A program made the translations under genes and the position numbers. From a virus, in the IMG/VR virus record IMGVR_UViG_3300043466_001019, positions 1 through 31,403 of that record: DNA of 31,403 bases; one strand, given 5' to 3'. The notes beneath the pieces were generated by a model. It was not told the DNA's origin. It did not search any database and saw nothing but the letters and a program-made list of their open reading frames with translations. Shown one piece after another: positions 1,580-14,646 of this stretch (positions are counted from its first letter, which is position 1; each line of letters begins with the position of its first letter).

Positions 1580-1609
1580 AATATAAAAAATAAACCCTCC
1601 TCGATTGCT

Positions 1610-1660
1610 ACCGCCAAGTGCAAAAGAAAAGGGAATTATTAAATACTTTACTTTGGCGGT
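1610..1660 (-). ncRNA. Structured 5' leader of the DUF3310-like operon
   Basis: Between the -7 box at 1665-1672 and the ATG at 1579 there is an 8-bp perfect inverted repeat, ACCGCCAA at one end and TTGGCGGT at the other (plus-strand arms 1610-1617 and 1653-1660), enclosing 35 nt. The enclosed CCCTTTTC can pair with GAGGAGGG located after the stem (two G-U pairs), which would make a pseudoknot. The GC-rich arms stand out in this AT-rich genome. A leader RNA structure is an inference. Confidence 0.5.
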
Positions 1661-1664
1661 TGTA

Positions 1665-1697
1665 CAAATATAATAATATTATTTTATTATATCCAAA
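1665..1697 (-). promoter_or_regulatory. Predicted host-type promoter for the DUF3310-like operon
   Basis: On the minus strand TTTG at 1697-1694 is followed after 21 nt by TATATTTG at 1672-1665. This matches the Bacteroidetes consensus of TTTG at -33 and TAnnTTTG at -7. The -33 part lies within the last codons of the upstream SF2 helicase gene. Transcription would begin about 80-85 nt upstream of the ATG at 1579, leaving room for the structured leader. Confidence 0.65.
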
Positions 1698-2920
1698 TTA
1701 TTTTGATTAAAAATTTTCAAAGTATAATCTTTTTTCTTTAATACCGTTTTATAAATGTCAAGTTCAATTCCTCCTTTGCTAAATATCCAAAAGACCTCAT
1801 TTGATTGTCTTTGCATTGTCGTTAATCTGTCTCGAGATTGCCAGTAACTCGTTGCACTGAAAGCGATATTATAATAGACTAAGTATTTGGCATTCTTTAA
1901 ACTTATTCCCTCACGTCCGGAGACGATTTGCAAAGCGATATTTTTATCGGTATTGTCAAACTCTTGAACATCATTTGTCAAGTTCTCGACGCCAAAAACT
2001 GAGAGCAAAGCGTTATATTCCTCTTTGAAGACGTAAAAAATTGCAATTTTTACTCCCTTAAATTTTTCGAGAGTAAATTCAGCCTTTGAGTAATCAATTA
2101 CTTTTGAAGTTCCGTCCTCAAATTTACAAGTCCCTGAGCTTAGTTGGTGGATTTTCTGCATTAATTTAACTCCAGTATCTCCGAGAATGACCTGTCCGTC
2201 GGTGTTCTTAACAACTAAATTTTTTTTGAGCTTGTTAATTATTAAATTTGTTATCGGTTGCATTTCACATTCGAGGATCATTTCGTTGACTGAGGTTGTG
2301 AAACCGGCTTGAGCTTGTGTAAAAGTGATTAAATAGTTTTGAATTACTCTTTTGATTAACGACTCTTTGGCTTGAGAGTAGTCTTTTATAACCGCATAGC
2401 CTAAGCGTTTCTCTTTTACGTCCACATAATCGACAGCCCACTTGTAAAAGTTAGTATATTGTTTAAATGGAGAATAATCGGAAACCCAAAATTGATTAAA
2501 CCATTGCGAATGACTCTCTGGCGTTGGCGTTCCGGATAAGAATATCATTGGCAAATGAGAGTAACGCTTTTTAAATAGCTGAGCGACTTTATTCGGCTTT
2601 GGAAACGCTCCATATTTGTGATGCTCATCCGAAACGACTAAGTCAAAATCAATATCGTCAATTTTATGTAAACTTTGATCGTTTATAATTACAATTTCAA
2701 ATTCATAACCAAAATTAAAATGATCTCTTTCAATACTTGAAATCGCTTTTTTCTTAGTTACAAATAATACCTTTTTAGCTCCAAAGAGTTTACAAGTTTC
2801 CAACGCAATAGCTGTTTTGCCTGTGCGGACTTCGCAGCAATAGTAAACTATTTTTTTATGCGTTAAAATCTCGACTCCCTCTTTGGCTAATTTTGACTGA
2901 TAATCTCTTAATTTAAGCAT
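1679..2920 (-). CDS. SF2 DNA helicase (SNF2/DEAD-like)
   Basis: The 413-aa protein has the motor motifs of superfamily 2 helicases in order: an RDYQ-like Q motif near residue 5, Walker A CEVRTGKT at 29-36, the DEHH box at 98-101, motif III SGTPTP at 129-134, and C-terminal motifs V/VI in the segments SGREGISL and YWQSRDRLTTMQRQ. It should be an ATP-dependent DNA translocase acting in phage replication or recombination. It lies downstream of the primase-helicase, with a homing endonuclease gene inserted between them. The ATG at 2920 lies inside the last codons of that endonuclease (8-nt overlap). Its own tail contains the promoter for the next operon. Confidence 0.92.
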   Translation of the reverse strand: MLKLRDYQSKLAKEGVEILTHKKIVYYCCEVRTGKTAIALETCKLFGAKKVLFVTKKKAISSIERDHFNFGYEFEIVIINDQSLHKIDDIDFDLVVSDEHHKYGAFPKPNKVAQLFKKRYSHLPMIFLSGTPTPESHSQWFNQFWVSDYSPFKQYTNFYKWAVDYVDVKEKRLGYAVIKDYSQAKESLIKRVIQNYLITFTQAQAGFTTSVNEMILECEMQPITNLIINKLKKNLVVKNTDGQVILGDTGVKLMQKIHQLSSGTCKFEDGTSKVIDYSKAEFTLEKFKGVKIAIFYVFKEEYNALLSVFGVENLTNDVQEFDNTDKNIALQIVSGREGISLKNAKYLVYYNIAFSATSYWQSRDRLTTMQRQSNEVFWIFSKGGIELDIYKTVLKKKDYTLKIFNQNNLDIIK

Positions 2921-3638
2921 ATCTAAAAAATGTATTATTTTTTTTATAAATTGACAAATGAGACCATAATTTTCTTTTATCCCAATTAATAGTTTTTGCT
3001 GCGTCTTCTAAGGTATCGTAATAAATTCCGGTTACAATATTAATAATTGGCTTATATAAATAATTTTTATCTCCTTTTAATTTTTCACTTATTTTTTGCT
3101 TTGAAACTTCAGTATGATTTTTTCCAAAGAATGGATTATTATCTTTTAATCTACTTTTACTTAAAAATAATTTTTGCCACTCAGGAATGTTTTTACCTCT
3201 TAATTTTGAAACTCTTTTTTCAATAGTTTCGTTTGATTGTTTTTTTCCTAAATTATACGATCTTAATTTTATTTTACATTCCTCGCTTATAATTTTACCT
3301 TTTTGAGATTGAGATATTTTTATTTTTGTCTCTTCGCTTAATCTACCGCTTTTATCATTTGTTTTAGTATAAACACAATTTAAACCAATTTCAATAGAAT
3401 TAAAAAATTCTTGCCAAAAACGTTCTTTTATATTTAATTCATTTATTTTACAAGTTTCTAAAATTTCAAATATATGATTTTCAGATCCGTATTTTTTTAA
3501 TGAATAATATAATTTTGGACTATCATTTGAATATAATTTTTTATGATAATTCCACCTTTTATAAATATCAACACTTTGCCCAATATAAATCTTATTATTT
3601 GGAGAAGTAATTTTATAAATTCCTATTTGTGTGTCCAT
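2913..3638 (-). CDS. GIY-YIG homing endonuclease 1 (NUMOD3-type)
   Basis: The 241-aa product starts with a GIY-YIG nuclease domain: GIY at 6-8, YIG at 18-20, the catalytic Arg at R28 and the metal-binding Glu at about E72 (KERFWQEF). Then come NUMOD3-type DNA-binding repeats (SEETKIKISQSQKG and GKNHTEVSKQKISEKLKG) and a C-terminal NUMOD1-like helix-turn-helix (TGIYYDTLEDAAKTI). Such enzymes cut DNA site-specifically and spread their own gene. The coding DNA is visibly more AT-rich than its neighbours. It sits between primase-helicase and helicase genes with no intron signals, so I call it free-standing. It resembles the second copy at 7086-7796. Confidence 0.93.
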   Translation of the reverse strand: MDTQIGIYKITSPNNKIYIGQSVDIYKRWNYHKKLYSNDSPKLYYSLKKYGSENHIFEILETCKINELNIKERFWQEFFNSIEIGLNCVYTKTNDKSGRLSEETKIKISQSQKGKIISEECKIKLRSYNLGKKQSNETIEKRVSKLRGKNIPEWQKLFLSKSRLKDNNPFFGKNHTEVSKQKISEKLKGDKNYLYKPIINIVTGIYYDTLEDAAKTINWDKRKLWSHLSIYKKNNTFFRYA

Positions 3639-6006: not shown

Positions 6007-6019
6007 ATTGTAAAAAAAT

Positions 6020-6091
6020 AGTCCCCAATACCAGCAGTGGTAGTTGCGTGGTATTAGGGACTTTGTAAAAAGTTAAATTATGGCTACCACT
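6020..6091 (-). ncRNA. Structured leader of the primase-helicase gene (hairpin with loop complement)
   Basis: Plus-strand arms 6020-6033 (agtccccaatacca) and 6049-6062 (tggtattagggact) form a 14-bp stem with one mismatch and a 15-nt loop. The loop holds agtggtag (6036-6043), an exact complement of ctaccact at 6084-6091, which would lie near the 5' end of the transcript. On the minus strand the stem is followed by A and then seven Ts just before the ATG at 6006, so it also resembles an intrinsic terminator. The layout fits an attenuator or a small terminated RNA in which the 5' end pairs with the hairpin loop. The structure is read from sequence; the function is inferred. Confidence 0.6.
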
Positions 6092-6103
6092 CCAAATGTT
6101 TTT

Positions 6104-6111
6104 CAAAGATA
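6104..6111 (-). promoter_or_regulatory. Predicted -7 box (TATCTTTG) for the primase-helicase operon
   Basis: TATCTTTG on the minus strand matches TAnnTTTG. The -33 region about 19 nt upstream reads TTAG, a weak match to TTTG. Transcription would start around 6098, placing the AGTGGTAG segment at the very 5' end of the leader. Confidence 0.5.
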
Positions 6112-6316: not shown

Positions 6317-7006
6317 TTAAAAATCCAAATCGTCGTCCTCGATAACCTCATCGCTTTCAATTGGTGCGATTGTATCAATTGGCTCGGCTTTTGCTAAATA
6401 CGTCTTTAAATAAGCCTCCAATACATTGTAAGCTTCATCCGCTAAGTCAGCCTCTGAGTCACTTAACGACTTCTCAAAGGCAAATCCTGGCGTTGTATAT
6501 TTAACAGCTCCCTTTTTGCCGTCGATAGCTTTGTCAACGACAACCCACTCGTCCGTTAACCTGGATCGAGTCTTTGCCGTAAAATCTCCGTAAGATTGGC
6601 ACGCTGCTCCCTTAAGTTGTAAGTTAGCAATTGAGCCGTCTTCTAGCATACAATATACGCTCTTAACATAATGACCTCCGGCAGCCTTAATTTTCTCTTT
6701 AATGTCTTTGTAAAGTCCCTTAGCAATTTCGTTTCCTTTAAATGGTTTAACAACCATTTCATCACGTGAGATAAATTTAACCTCGTTGGAATTGATTTGA
6801 CTAGAGCTTGCATCGTTCCACCCTTTTATGGTGTGCAATTCGTCAAGGACTAAAAATTTAAAAGGCAAAGGAATTGCGACGTTTTCTTTGGTTTCTTTAT
6901 CGTAATAACTGAAACCTTTGTCGTTGGATTTCCACTCGATAAATTTTGTCGCTGGGTTTGTTTGTGGTTGTGCAAACGCTTGTCTGCGGTTTGAAGTTGT
7001 ACTCAT
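6317..7006 (-). CDS. Probable single-stranded DNA-binding protein
   Basis: The 229-aa protein has a soluble beta-rich body (FIEWKSNDKGFSYYD, PLPFKFLVLDEL, WVVVDKAI) and an acidic C-terminus ending EDDDLDF. A short acidic tail ending in Phe is the hallmark of SSB proteins, where it recruits partner enzymes. The position directly before the primase-helicase, separated by its own terminator, fits a DNA-replication role in which it coats ssDNA. I cannot assign an OB fold by eye, so the call rests on tail, size and context. It has its own TATATTTG box (7071-7078) and a structured leader. Confidence 0.65.
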   Translation of the reverse strand: MSTTSNRRQAFAQPQTNPATKFIEWKSNDKGFSYYDKETKENVAIPLPFKFLVLDELHTIKGWNDASSSQINSNEVKFISRDEMVVKPFKGNEIAKGLYKDIKEKIKAAGGHYVKSVYCMLEDGSIANLQLKGAACQSYGDFTAKTRSRLTDEWVVVDKAIDGKKGAVKYTTPGFAFEKSLSDSEADLADEAYNVLEAYLKTYLAKAEPIDTIAPIESDEVIEDDDLDF

Positions 7007-7022
7007 AATTTATTTTATTTAT

Positions 7023-7054
7023 GGACTCAATAGATGCTCGTGAATCCTTCGAGC
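7023..7054 (-). ncRNA. Pseudoknot-like leader of the SSB-like gene
   Basis: In the 65-nt leader, GCTCG and CGAGC (plus arms 7036-7040 and 7050-7054) form a stem with the 9-nt minus-strand loop AAGGATTCA. The loop segment GGATTCA can pair with TGAGTCC just downstream (plus 7023-7029) over 7 bp with one G-U. The stem can be extended by AATA/TATT beyond a 3x3 internal loop. This is H-type pseudoknot geometry between promoter and ATG. The pairing is read from the sequence; the role is unknown. Confidence 0.5.
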
Positions 7055-7070
7055 TGTTATTATGATTTAG

Positions 7071-7078
7071 CAAATATA
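7071..7078 (-). promoter_or_regulatory. Predicted -7 box (TATATTTG) for the SSB-like gene
   Basis: TATATTTG on the minus strand, with TTTA about 19 nt upstream in place of TTTG. It starts 8 nt after the stop of the second homing endonuclease gene, and its -33 region lies within that gene's last codons, so the SSB-like gene can be expressed independently of the insertion. Confidence 0.6.
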
Positions 7079-7085
7079 TAAAAAT

Positions 7086-7796
7086 TTATATTAATATTAA
7101 AGAAGTTTTATTTTTTCTTTTACCTTTTAAAATTCTACTTAAATTTTTAATGTTATAAGTTTTTTCTGCATCTACAATTGAATTATAAAAAATACCATTA
7201 TTTAAATCCAAAACTATATTAATCCATTTTTTTGAATCAGACATTTTTTGTTTTGTTTCTTCAGACATTTTTTTACCTTTCCAATATTTAGCATTATTTT
7301 TTGAAATTTTATTTTTAGTTTCTTTTGTAACTATATGATTTTTTAATGATAAACTTATTTTATTTTTAATTTCATTTGAAATTATTATATTCATTTTTTT
7401 ATTTCTAATTTTTTCTTTTGACTCTTCGGTATGATTTCTTCCTAACCAATATTTATTATTTTTTTTAGATTGAGATATTTTATTTTTAGTTTCATTTGAA
7501 AATATTAATTTTAATTCGTTTGTTTTAGTTAATACACAATTTAATCCATTTTCTAATACATTATAATAATCTTGCCAATATCTTTCACGTTCATTTAATT
7601 TATTTATTTCACACTCTTCAATAATTTCAAATTTATGATTTTTTATTCCATATTTATTTAATGAATTATATAATTTAATTTGCGATTTATTTTTTTTATA
7701 TAATTTTAAATAAGAATTAAATCTATTTTCAATATTTATACTTTGACCAATATAAATTTTATTTTTTAAATTTGTTATTTTATATATTCCAATCAT
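7086..7796 (-). CDS. GIY-YIG homing endonuclease 2 (NUMOD3-type)
   Basis: I choose the ATG at 7796 (MIGIYKITN), since the seven residues from a possible start at 7817 (MGAFYIT) lie upstream of the GIY domain and overlap the structured leader. The 236-aa product has GIY at 3-5, YIG at 15-17, R25 and E72 (ERYWQDYY), then NUMOD3-type repeats (ISQSKKNNKYWLGRNH, SEETKQKMSDSKKW) and a NUMOD1-like end (NNGIFYNSIVDAEKTY). It shares the GLNCV.TKTN segment with the copy at 2913-3638, so the two are homologous. The DNA is extremely AT-rich, consistent with a mobile gene. It is inserted directly in front of the SSB-like gene's promoter. Confidence 0.92.
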   Translation of the reverse strand: MIGIYKITNLKNKIYIGQSINIENRFNSYLKLYKKNKSQIKLYNSLNKYGIKNHKFEIIEECEINKLNERERYWQDYYNVLENGLNCVLTKTNELKLIFSNETKNKISQSKKNNKYWLGRNHTEESKEKIRNKKMNIIISNEIKNKISLSLKNHIVTKETKNKISKNNAKYWKGKKMSEETKQKMSDSKKWINIVLDLNNGIFYNSIVDAEKTYNIKNLSRILKGKRKNKTSLILI

Positions 7797-7807
7797 TGTT
7801 ATATAAA

Positions 7808-7897
7808 AAGCGCCCACAATTTCAAGCGGGCAGGCTTTACTTTTGTGAGCGTTTAAATTTATTTTTAATTTCTATTGAGCCTGCCCGAACAATAGAA
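7808..7897 (-). ncRNA. Kissing-loop RNA element between the 43-aa ORF and endonuclease 2
   Basis: Two hairpins face each other. Hairpin A: arms ttctattg (7870-7877) and caatagaa (7890-7897), a perfect 8-bp stem with a 12-nt loop holding agcctgcccg (7878-7887). Hairpin B: arms aagcgcccacaa (7808-7819) and ttgtgagcgttt (7843-7854), 12 bp with one mismatch and one wobble, with a loop holding cgggcaggct (7827-7836). The two loop decamers are perfect complements, GC-rich in a very AT-rich region. In minus-strand RNA this would form a 10-bp loop-loop interaction. No gene lies in 7818-7900. The function is unknown. Confidence 0.65.
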
Positions 7898-7900
7898 TTG

Positions 7901-8032
7901 CTAAATTATATAATTTTTTTTAATTGACAAAATTTTTCTATACAAATTATTAACTCTTTCAGAGTTTATGCCTCTTTTATAGTAAAAATTTAACACTCTT
8001 TTAATCCTTGTTAGTTCGCTTTGCTTATTCAT
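7901..8032 (-). CDS. Small basic protein (43 aa)
   Basis: The frame runs from ATG at 8032-8030 to TAG at 7903-7901. The product starts MNKQSELTRIKRVLNFYYKR and continues with many Lys/Arg residues in a probably helical arrangement. The start overlaps the TAA of the upstream 70-aa gene as ATGAATAA, the same coupling as at 189-196. No family is recognised. A DNA- or RNA-binding role is possible from the charge but unproven. The kissing-loop element follows 4 nt after its stop. Confidence 0.6.
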   Translation of the reverse strand: MNKQSELTRIKRVLNFYYKRGINSERVNNLYRKILSIKKNYII

Positions 8033-9439: not shown

Positions 9440-9447
9440 CAAAGATA
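9440..9447 (-). promoter_or_regulatory. Predicted -7 box (TATCTTTG) of the early small-gene operon
   Basis: TATCTTTG on the minus strand matches TAnnTTTG and lies 31 nt upstream of the first ATG (9408). I see no good TTTG at -33, so strength or activator dependence is open. The 10-bp tandem repeats at 9531-9560 lie about 85 nt upstream. Confidence 0.5.
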
Positions 9448-12039: not shown

Positions 12040-14646
12040 TTATGCAACTACTATTCCAACAAACATTGGCGCTCCAGATGTTAAAGTTCCTGTTCCAAAT
12101 GGATTTGGAGGAGATCCAAAAGTTGCCGTTTGAATAATATTTGTTGTTAAACTTGTTGGTATTCCCTGAGATATTGGCAATATAGTTGTTGAACCATAAG
12201 ACGAAACAGTACAAGTATTTTGAAAATGTGTGCCTATCCAATAAGTTGTACCGGCTGTAAAATTAAAAGTTGTCGTTGCTGTTTTTTGCCCTAAGGTTGA
12301 ACAATCTAAAGTTACACTTTCATAAAGTTTTGCGTCAGGTCTTCCGTTTAAATCTGAATAAATTAAAATTCTTGCATTTGCGGTTGCCCCTAAAATTGTA
12401 ACATTTATATATAAAGATGATGAAGTTATATTTTGAGCAGGAATAAAAGGCTGTAAAGTCATTCTATTGTTATTTGTTGCAATAGTTGCTAAAGTTGCTG
12501 AAGAGATGCAACAATTTGCAACTTGACCTGACGCCATTTTTACAATAGAATGCACTCCTAAAATTCCACTCCCTCCGCTTATTGTCAAATCGCCACTTCC
12601 TAAAATGTCATTTCCGTTTATTGTTTTTATATTCGTGCCACTTACAAGCGTATCTTGTTTTGAAGTAGCTAATCCACTATATTGGCTATTAGTCGCATTG
12701 TCTCCGGTATTCGTTCCGCTTTGGTTTCCAATAGTTGTCAAGTTAGCATCCGTAACATAACGCTTATTAGTAGAGTCAGAAATGTCAGCCGTTGTCAAAG
12801 TAACGTCTGAGCTTAACGCTTTAGTATTAATTGTGCGAGTATTTGGAACTAAGCCACTCAAGTCCTGATCTCCGGTATTACTTCCTGATAAAGTTGTAAT
12901 TCCAAGTTTTGATTTGATTGTCGCATCGGTTTCGTCTCCGGTATTCGTTCCACTTTGATTTCCTATTGTGGTTAAATTCGCATCCGTAACGTATCTCTTA
13001 TTGGTTGAGTCAGCAATATCGGCAGTCGTAACGCTTTTATTTTTCCAAAGTGATGTTGAACTCTCGTAAGATAATAATTGATTATTTGTAATGCCGTTTA
13101 TTGCTACATTGTGCAACTCTTGAAGTTCGTATCCGTTTTGAATTTGCACCTCAATTTGTCCTTGAGTTGGATGCGACCTTGTAATTTTTCCAATATAAAC
13201 TAAATGATCCGGAGCGCTTGGCTTTGTAGTTGTGTAAGCTCCAGCCGTTGTCGGACTCAAATATAATTGAGCGCCCTCCGTAAATGAGGAAGTATCTAAG
13301 CCGTTCAAATCTCCAACGATTACACAATTTCCAACGCCATTATTTAAAATGTCTGATTGTAATAATCCAAAAGTCCTTGAACTTAAACTCTCCGAACTTG
13401 CTTGCGCTTTTGAAACTAAAATTTTATTTCCATTTGCTCCACTAATATAAACAATAGTTCCCTTTGTTAAAGTTGAGCCAGTCATATTTTTAACCTCACG
13501 AACTAACGTACCGGCTTGACCTCCAACCGGAATATCTAAGGCTGTTATAAATGGATTAACTCCGTCAGCTCCGTCGTTTATTAAGTCACTCGTATTTGTG
13601 ACCGGAGTTGGAATTGTTGGCTTATTTAAAATTTGAGCAACGCCACTCGTTGCATTCCAATCGCTATTGACTTGCGCTGCTGGAATAGTTGGCTTGTTTA
13701 ATATCTGAGCGTCTCCACTTACAGCATTCCAGTCAGCGTTGACGTTAACCTCTGCTCCAGTTTGAATACCAGCCAATTTATTTTTTTCAGCCGTTGTATA
13801 GTCATTTGTACTTAGTCCCTTTCCGGTAACTTTGTCAACTTTCAAAGCGTCTTGAGTATCAACGTATGTTATTGTCGCCAATCCACTAATTGACGGAATG
13901 GTTGGCTTATTTAAAATCCTTGCGTCTCCACTTGTAGCGTTCCAATCTGCATTAACATTTACCTCCGCTCCGTCTTGTATTCCGTCAAGTTTTGTCTTTA
14001 ATGTATTTGTAAAGTCATTTGTACTTAGTCCCTTTCCGGAAACCTTATCGACTTTCAAAGCGTCTTGACTATCTACATAAGTAACCGTTGCCAATCCACT
14101 AATTGACGGGATTGTCGGTTTATTTAATATTTGAGCTTTCCCAGTTGTAGCGTTCCAATCTGAATTGACTTGCTCAGCTGGGATTGTCGGTTTATTTAAA
14201 ATTTGAGCAACTCCACTCGTAGCGTTCCAATCTGAATTGACTTGACTTGGTGGCAAGTCTTGAGCCGTAATAAATGGATGCACTCCGTCAGCTCCGTCGT
14301 TTGTTAATTCGCTAGTATTGGTAACTGGCGCTGGAATTGTCGGCTTATTTAAAATCTCAGCCACTCCGCTCGTAGCGTTCCAATCTGAATTGACTTGAGC
14401 GTTAGGAATTGTCGGCTTATTTTTAATATAACTCGGATCGTTTGGTTGCGTTTCGTTCCAATCGCTTTGAACTTGCTCTCCAATTACTCTATTAATATTA
14501 ATTATATAGTCGTTTGGATTGCTTATAATTGTAATCTCCTCAACGGATGCCTCAACAACTATGTCGATTGTCTCAACGATAGTTGATGAATTAACAATAA
14601 TATCGTTGATAGTGTCTTGTACTATTATATCTATATTATCGCTCAT
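12040..14646 (-). CDS. Long repetitive tail fibre / receptor-binding protein
   Basis: The 868-aa protein has an N-terminal part of about 60 residues, then seven copies of a module with the core SDWNATSGVAQILNKPTIP (first copy diverged, with NDPSYIKNKPTIP), interleaved with GLSTNDFT-type and TNDGADGVHPFITA-type segments. A second repeat family follows (DSTNKRYVTDANLTTIGNQSGTNTGD, twice), and a C-terminal domain of about 160 residues rich in Thr, Ser and Gly, probably a beta-sandwich that binds the receptor. The DWN...NKP repeats are typical of Bacteroidetes phage fibres. It sits after the BppU-like protein. The repeated DNA could allow recombination between copies. Confidence 0.88.
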   Translation of the reverse strand: MSDNIDIIVQDTINDIIVNSSTIVETIDIVVEASVEEITIISNPNDYIININRVIGEQVQSDWNETQPNDPSYIKNKPTIPNAQVNSDWNATSGVAEILNKPTIPAPVTNTSELTNDGADGVHPFITAQDLPPSQVNSDWNATSGVAQILNKPTIPAEQVNSDWNATTGKAQILNKPTIPSISGLATVTYVDSQDALKVDKVSGKGLSTNDFTNTLKTKLDGIQDGAEVNVNADWNATSGDARILNKPTIPSISGLATITYVDTQDALKVDKVTGKGLSTNDYTTAEKNKLAGIQTGAEVNVNADWNAVSGDAQILNKPTIPAAQVNSDWNATSGVAQILNKPTIPTPVTNTSDLINDGADGVNPFITALDIPVGGQAGTLVREVKNMTGSTLTKGTIVYISGANGNKILVSKAQASSESLSSRTFGLLQSDILNNGVGNCVIVGDLNGLDTSSFTEGAQLYLSPTTAGAYTTTKPSAPDHLVYIGKITRSHPTQGQIEVQIQNGYELQELHNVAINGITNNQLLSYESSTSLWKNKSVTTADIADSTNKRYVTDANLTTIGNQSGTNTGDETDATIKSKLGITTLSGSNTGDQDLSGLVPNTRTINTKALSSDVTLTTADISDSTNKRYVTDANLTTIGNQSGTNTGDNATNSQYSGLATSKQDTLVSGTNIKTINGNDILGSGDLTISGGSGILGVHSIVKMASGQVANCCISSATLATIATNNNRMTLQPFIPAQNITSSSLYINVTILGATANARILIYSDLNGRPDAKLYESVTLDCSTLGQKTATTTFNFTAGTTYWIGTHFQNTCTVSSYGSTTILPISQGIPTSLTTNIIQTATFGSPPNPFGTGTLTSGAPMFVGIVVA

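Follow-up and report, generated by a model that had tools for sequence, protein, structure and literature searches.

A pair of hairpins joined through their loops almost certainly forms the 5' leader of a minus-strand RNA in the viral DNA analysed here. The window, i.e., the whole stretch of 31,403 bases, is a virus record whose structural and replication genes lie almost all on the minus strand. We infer that the leader, which is predicted to be transcribed, acts in cis. Phages of Flavobacterium, Polaribacter, and Cellulophaga share this architecture, which is nearly free in sequence, has at least 25 different kissing pairs, and typically stands upstream of DNA replication genes; a genome often has several copies. 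Hardly anything is known of early-gene control in Bacteroidetes phages, which translate without Shine-Dalgarno sequences and use a promoter type of their own.

The leader upstream of the endonuclease gene

The elements of the leader and its gene are as follows.

7901 to 7908, minus strand: promoter -7 box TAATTTAG, recognised from sequence, with one mismatch to the Bacteroidetes consensus TAHHTTTG
7870 to 7897, minus strand: hairpin A, the RNA 5' end, defined by covariation in 38 homologues and by an identical nested structure from RNAalifold
7852 to 7869, minus strand: A/U-rich linker between hairpins A and B, about 19 nt across the class
7811 to 7851, minus strand: hairpin B, defined by covariation, with an internal loop also seen with other kissing sequences
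7828 to 7833, minus strand: kissing partner in loop B, forming 6 bp with loop A at 7881-7886 (2 of 6 kissing columns covary; 99.6% paired)
7805 to 7809, minus strand: U-tract 3' of stem B, taken from the class profile, terminator-like and weak in the window copy
7086 to 7796, minus strand: gene for a GIY-YIG homing endonuclease with NUMOD3 motifs, from Pfam and PHROGs matches

In F. johnsoniae, transcription starts 4-5 nt downstream of the -7 box (PMC6847099). By this spacing rule, the predicted +1 falls at 7896/7895, among the initial base pairs of hairpin A; any RNA made from this promoter would thus start with the hairpin. The endonuclease ATG at 7796 lies about 15 nt past stem B; a GTG-started frame in the mechanical ORF list (7086-7817) simply extends the gene into hairpin B.

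The original prediction had placed two hairpins here with an exact 10-nt complementarity, and both features are present. Their inner anatomy required revision. Hairpin A had been drawn as a perfect 8-bp stem with a 12-nt loop. It has a UU/CU mismatch step and a C-G pair (C7887-G7880) that closes the hexaloop GGGCAG (7886-7881). The 12-bp stem and 23-nt loop proposed for hairpin B are replaced by an outer stem (7851-7843/7819-7811, including a G-U pair), an internal loop AAGUA/GAAA, an inner stem of 4 bp (AAGC/GCUU, 7837-7834/7827-7824), and the hexaloop CUGCCC (7833-7828).

The evidence for this fold is comparative. A distant DNA search found an intergenic copy in Flavobacterium phage 11b with about 77% identity, and pattern scans of viral contigs yielded an alignment of 38 distinct copies. 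In this alignment, 99.2% of the structure cells are paired, and 14 of the 26 pairs, including two kissing pairs, show double-sided changes (95 cells). None of 500 shuffles reached these counts, and with the partner shifted by 1-3 columns no more than 43% remained paired. RNAalifold recovered the same nested helices from the alignment alone. The two kissing columns changed from G-C to A-U in 4 copies and from G-C to U-A in 3, and the kissing pair occurs across homologues as GGGCAG/CUGCCC, GUGCAG/CUGCAC, and AGGCAG/CUGCCU. The compensatory changes by which the prediction was to be judged are thus present. The loops do pair, as had been proposed, but over 6 bp only: column pairs 14-21 and 71-78, to which the outer 4 nt of the proposed 10-nt kiss belong, covary within their own hairpins, and the true kiss therefore consists of 6 bp between two 6-nt loops. 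An extended kiss of 8-10 bp is ruled out by the changes of columns 71-78 to A-U and G-C and of columns 14-21 to U-A inside these closing stems.

Two wobble pairs, U57-G91 in 38 of 38 copies and U10-G25 in 25 of 38, favour an RNA of the minus strand over a DNA structure. Together with the covariation, they bear out the proposal of a loop-loop interaction in a minus-strand leader RNA. The single-sequence folding energy is unremarkable (z about -1.3) and of no evidential use; chance is excluded by the comparative evidence.

The element had also been suggested to be an undescribed structured RNA, and as far as checked this agrees with the databases. Rfam 15 gave no match on the window at the gathering score and none at E up to 5 on 6950-8000. 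No description of such leaders was found in the literature searched, which did not extend to subscription journals and preprints. The class has apparently not been described before.

Kissing leaders as a class

The window has three kissing leaders, at 7.9, 6.1, and 1.7 kb, and at least one unstructured leader near 9.44 kb. The two further kissing leaders are:

6007 to 6111, minus strand: second kissing leader, with promoter TATCTTTG at 6111-6104, followed by a primase gene
1580 to 1672, minus strand: third kissing leader, with promoter TATATTTG at 1672-1665 and a U-tract, followed by the ORF 1349-1579

In the second leader, loop A' (GUGGUAG, 6090-6084; AGUGGUAG) pairs with loop B' (CUACCAC, 6043-6037; CUACCACU), the outer stem measures 14 bp, and the U-tract lies at 6018-6012. 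It has topology alone, not sequence, in common with the first leader. It has 20 homologues and was matched independently, with E 8.8e-6, by the covariance model R2 of the second family. In the third leader, ACCGCCAA (1660-1653) pairs with UUGGCGGU (1617-1610). The model of the first family (R1) gave weak extra matches, the better of which lie between promoter and gene and include window 6120-6008 before the primase; with R2, several type-1 leaders were the best or next-best match of their genome. With topology alone conserved, the class escapes family searches based on sequence.

Fourteen sequences of the second family contain six kissing variants (GUCGUCG, GUGGUCG, GUAGUCG, GUCGUAG, GUGGUAG, and GUCGCAG). 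The partner loop matches in every variant, the 7-bp kiss is 100% paired, and three of the seven kissing columns show double-sided changes. Judged from the sequences compared, the kissing sequence is freely exchangeable provided that both loops change together. The kiss could be broken and restored by loop swaps, which makes a clean functional test possible, and the swappable loop pairs would lend themselves to use as orthogonal RNA parts.

The extent of the class was surveyed from all promoter-like TAnnnTTG sites of the collected loci; a candidate had to combine hairpins A and B, with loop complementarity over 6 nt or more, and to end in a U-rich tail. The scan gave 156 promoter-linked candidates versus 9 in dinucleotide shuffles, and 124 versus 0 at a score of at least 24; since the loci were partly picked for holding the element, these counts show its reality and not its frequency. 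The candidates form about 28-30 kissing-sequence groups, of which at least 25 look genuine. Their common architecture runs from the promoter through hairpin A, a linker of about 19 nt, hairpin B with its internal loop, and the U-tract to the start codon. Hairpin A mostly begins 4-6 nt after the -7 box, and the ATG mostly follows stem B by 12-21 nt. By its letters, the internal loop AGUA/GAAA resembles the sarcin-ricin (loop E) motif; it is seen again together with several kissing sequences and stems that are unrelated to one another. UG/AUUU, UGAA/AGAU, or almost no internal loop is present elsewhere in the class.

This recurrence bears on one alternative, namely that the leader senses a ligand or protein and controls translation of the first gene in a riboswitch-like or autoregulatory manner, with the internal loop as candidate binding site. 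The constancy of AGUA/GAAA among unrelated stems and the closeness of the start codon would suit such a sensor. The fold, however, leaves the start region unsequestered, and the internal loop differs or almost disappears in other leaders, which makes a sensing role rather improbable.

Some scan results were set aside. The first search pattern (CGGGCAGGCTCAATAG) had 8 matches, several of which (L081, L085, L086, and L088) are chance occurrences in other phages. The loosest pattern produced many chance matches in coding DNA, which were removed by eye. The scan clusters CAAAGC, TTTTCCACA, CAACACT, ATTTTGAACC, TTTGCG, CAGCCA, AATCCG, and TGTAACC were judged to be chance and excluded.

Among isolates, one plausible leader each was found in Flavobacterium phages 11b and elemoF, Polaribacter phage P12002L, and Cellulophaga phage phi10:1; all of these calls except that in 11b rest on a single sequence, without covariation. 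The P12002L leader lies upstream of an annotated replication protein and that of elemoF upstream of replication initiation genes. Scans of the isolates phi46:1 and Leef_1 found no leader. The exact pattern found nothing in the host genomes of 84,980 species. In 199 Flavobacterium genomes neither R1 nor R2 gave a true match; R2 returned nothing, in a set that lacked a positive control, and the sole R1 match is a plain terminator hairpin. Among loci near primase relatives in cellular assemblies there is one convincing leader, on a 5.8-kb contig (L203).

Leaders and genes are combined freely. One primase type is preceded by GUGGUAG, CAUCUAC, AACUUCGACA, or CUGGAAG leaders, and one leader type serves many genes. 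Leaders of one genome use different kissing pairs, which fits pairing within one molecule. None of 48 same-record leader pairs shares its kissing sequence, where label shuffling predicts 4.4 (P 0.009, indicative only, as the records are related). This absence of sharing is suggestive of intramolecular pairing and avoidance of cross-pairing.

The same data weigh on the idea of a small trans-acting RNA whose gene stops at hairpin B, leakage then accounting for expression of the gene downstream. A promoter, a compact fold, and a U-tract would indeed yield an RNA of 90 nt. The element nevertheless lies nearly always directly 5' of a start codon, and the free change of the kissing sequences implies that there is no fixed trans target; a small RNA gene is accordingly very improbable.

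The mobile cassette and its surroundings

Comparison with relatives delimits a further feature around the first leader:

7082 to 7897, minus strand: mobile cassette composed of the leader, the endonuclease gene, and a new promoter

The alignment of four relatives with the window runs as far as 7897 and is taken up again at 7081 (L001, L003, and L006) or 7111 (L002), the latter junction falling within a small shared A/T-rich sequence. In relatives without the cassette, the same promoter runs directly into another leader. The cassette is therefore inserted exactly at the +1 of the next transcript, bounded 5' by the leader and 3' by a new promoter. It is 99.6% identical to that of another record (L012), versus 85-87% in the flanking DNA, which indicates recent movement.

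The position at the edge of a mobile cassette might suggest that the leader is part of the homing endonuclease element, as an intron-like or target-site RNA. This reading is refuted by context. In other phages the same leader precedes genes for a helicase, DUF6291, a replisome-organiser-like protein, a methyltransferase-like protein, a primase, and an HNH endonuclease; its presence before helicase, DUF6291, replisome-organiser-like, and methyltransferase-like genes without an endonuclease shows that it does not belong to the endonuclease gene. A group I intron finds no match among Rfam introns and no interrupted gene at the empty site, and the insertion lies between promoter and leader.

Other features of these loci were recorded alongside. 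A second GIY-YIG/NUMOD3 endonuclease gene (window 2913-3638) lies between the primase and helicase genes and has no kissing leader. Paralogous endonuclease leaders occur twice in L078 (8317-8450 and 10180-10290), with both loops changed in step (GUGGUCG/CGACCAC versus GUGGUAG/CUACCAC), and twice in L193 (2450-2560 and 3880-3980), with matched loop changes (GUGGUCG versus GUAGUCG).

Just after the cassette, the transcript of an SSB-like gene (phrog_6706) has a leader of its own at 7054-7004 on the minus strand, with an H-type pseudoknot at 7054-7023 and, between it and the ATG, an unpaired A/U-rich stretch. The leader also lies upstream of the phrog_6706 gene in L001-L080. In 16 sequences, 99% of the cells are paired and 10 of 12 pairs show double-sided changes. 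This leader resembles the one through which gene 32 of phage T4 is autoregulated. The SSB-like protein (gene 6317-7006) has an acidic C-terminal tail, and its only relatives among annotated phages are in mycobacteriophages, at about 33% identity; no significant match was found for the fold of its predicted structure (mean pLDDT 68). Between the terminator of the SSB operon and the primase promoter (about 6215-6190, minus strand) there is a run of at least 8 G (ATAGGGGGGGGGTAC) adjoining the inverted sequences TTAATAGTACACA and TGTGTACTATTAA. Farther away, at 12040-14646, the window encodes a tail-fibre-like protein with repeated VNSDWNATSGxAxILNKPTIP units.

Possible functions and known systems

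The reading tentatively preferred here is that of a cis-acting attenuator, in which hairpin B would be a conditional terminator or pause site whose loop is held by A. The transcript would begin at the base of hairpin A, and hairpin B would be made next. The small apical loop of B could then be captured by the loop of A, giving a compact kissing complex just 5' of the first gene. Together with the U-tract, hairpin B would terminate transcription weakly and conditionally or make the polymerase pause, and the docking of A onto B would set the frequency of read-through into the replication or endonuclease genes. A protein or ligand, perhaps at the internal loop, might shift the docking.

In a sample unfiltered for U, this base makes up 80-87% at positions 2-4 after stem B and returns to background by about position 11. 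From -20 to -8, U accounts for 57% in kissing leaders versus 29% in short ordinary leaders of the same phages; the latter are rich in A at -11 to -14, in keeping with Bacteroidetes translation starts. A terminator-type score, whose formula is calibrated on E. coli, is positive in 45 of 78 distinct B hairpins. The median of the B hairpins is +5 and the window copy scores -16; two ordinary terminators nearby score +21 and +48. As the U-tract is clear but the scores are modest, a conditional terminator or pause is proposed. Several observations speak against attenuation: the score is borderline and, in the window copy, negative; no competing anti-terminator fold was found; and a hairpin exactly at the 5' end, which attenuation does not need, is needed for protection of that end.

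Protection of the 5' end is the main rival, although it is judged unlikely. The knotted hairpins would shield phage messages from 5'-end-dependent decay, so that they outlive those of the host. Across families, hairpin A starts on or close to the predicted +1, and in the alignment of the first family pairing is complete from the column where the RNA should start. The architecture is kept while its sequence is free, and protection would suit any gene. It leaves unexplained why stem B is strictly followed by a U-tract where ordinary leaders are rich in A, and some promoters of the same phage, e.g., near 9440, have no structure.

If the attenuator reading is extended to the whole class, the kissing leaders could form a phage leader superfamily whose 5'-terminal hairpin, by docking onto a terminator-like hairpin at its apical loop, provides an RNA-only switch for the first replication-gene transcripts. 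Each leader of a genome would have its own, mutually exclusive kissing code, and leaders would move between genes as modules and be acquired by homing endonuclease genes. This wider proposal is possible and is advanced with reserve.

Several known systems resemble the kissing leaders in part. With attenuators and intrinsic terminators they share a GC-rich stem base, an A-tract before and a U-tract after hairpin B, and a position upstream of genes. They differ in their borderline strength and in the capture of the apical loop by a 5' hairpin, and neither a leader peptide nor an alternative anti-terminator was found. Purine and cobalamin riboswitches are leader RNAs with loop-loop contacts; unlike them, the class has no conserved ligand core and the window no Rfam match. 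Kissing complexes of the TAR-TAR* type have 6-nt loops that are fully paired, as in the type-1 family, whereas the kissing leaders are intramolecular, lie in a phage leader, and change in sequence.

Phage cis-acting leader RNAs are known from few systems, of which put of HK022 is the best example. The putRNA, of about 70 nt, consists of two hairpins close to or at the beginning of early phage transcripts and folds without protein (PMC9378689). Its V shape includes a minor-groove triplex, and the words "kissing" and "pseudoknot" are absent from that paper (PMC9378689). In the kissing leaders, too, two stem-loops lie just 3' of an early phage promoter, the timing being judged from gene content. 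A put-like processive antiterminator, binding RNA polymerase for read-through of later terminators, would agree with this position at the start of early transcripts, with the size class, and with the two hairpins (PMC9378689). It is distinctly improbable, since put acts via defined nucleotides that contact the polymerase zinc-binding domain; across the families of kissing leaders, by contrast, only the architecture and some internal loops recur, and the transcription units are short, each with its own promoter. As the HK022 putRNA has no kissing loops and depends on specific polymerase contacts, the kissing leaders are not filed as put: their loops pair mutually, their sequence is nearly free, several occur per genome, and a U-tract follows.
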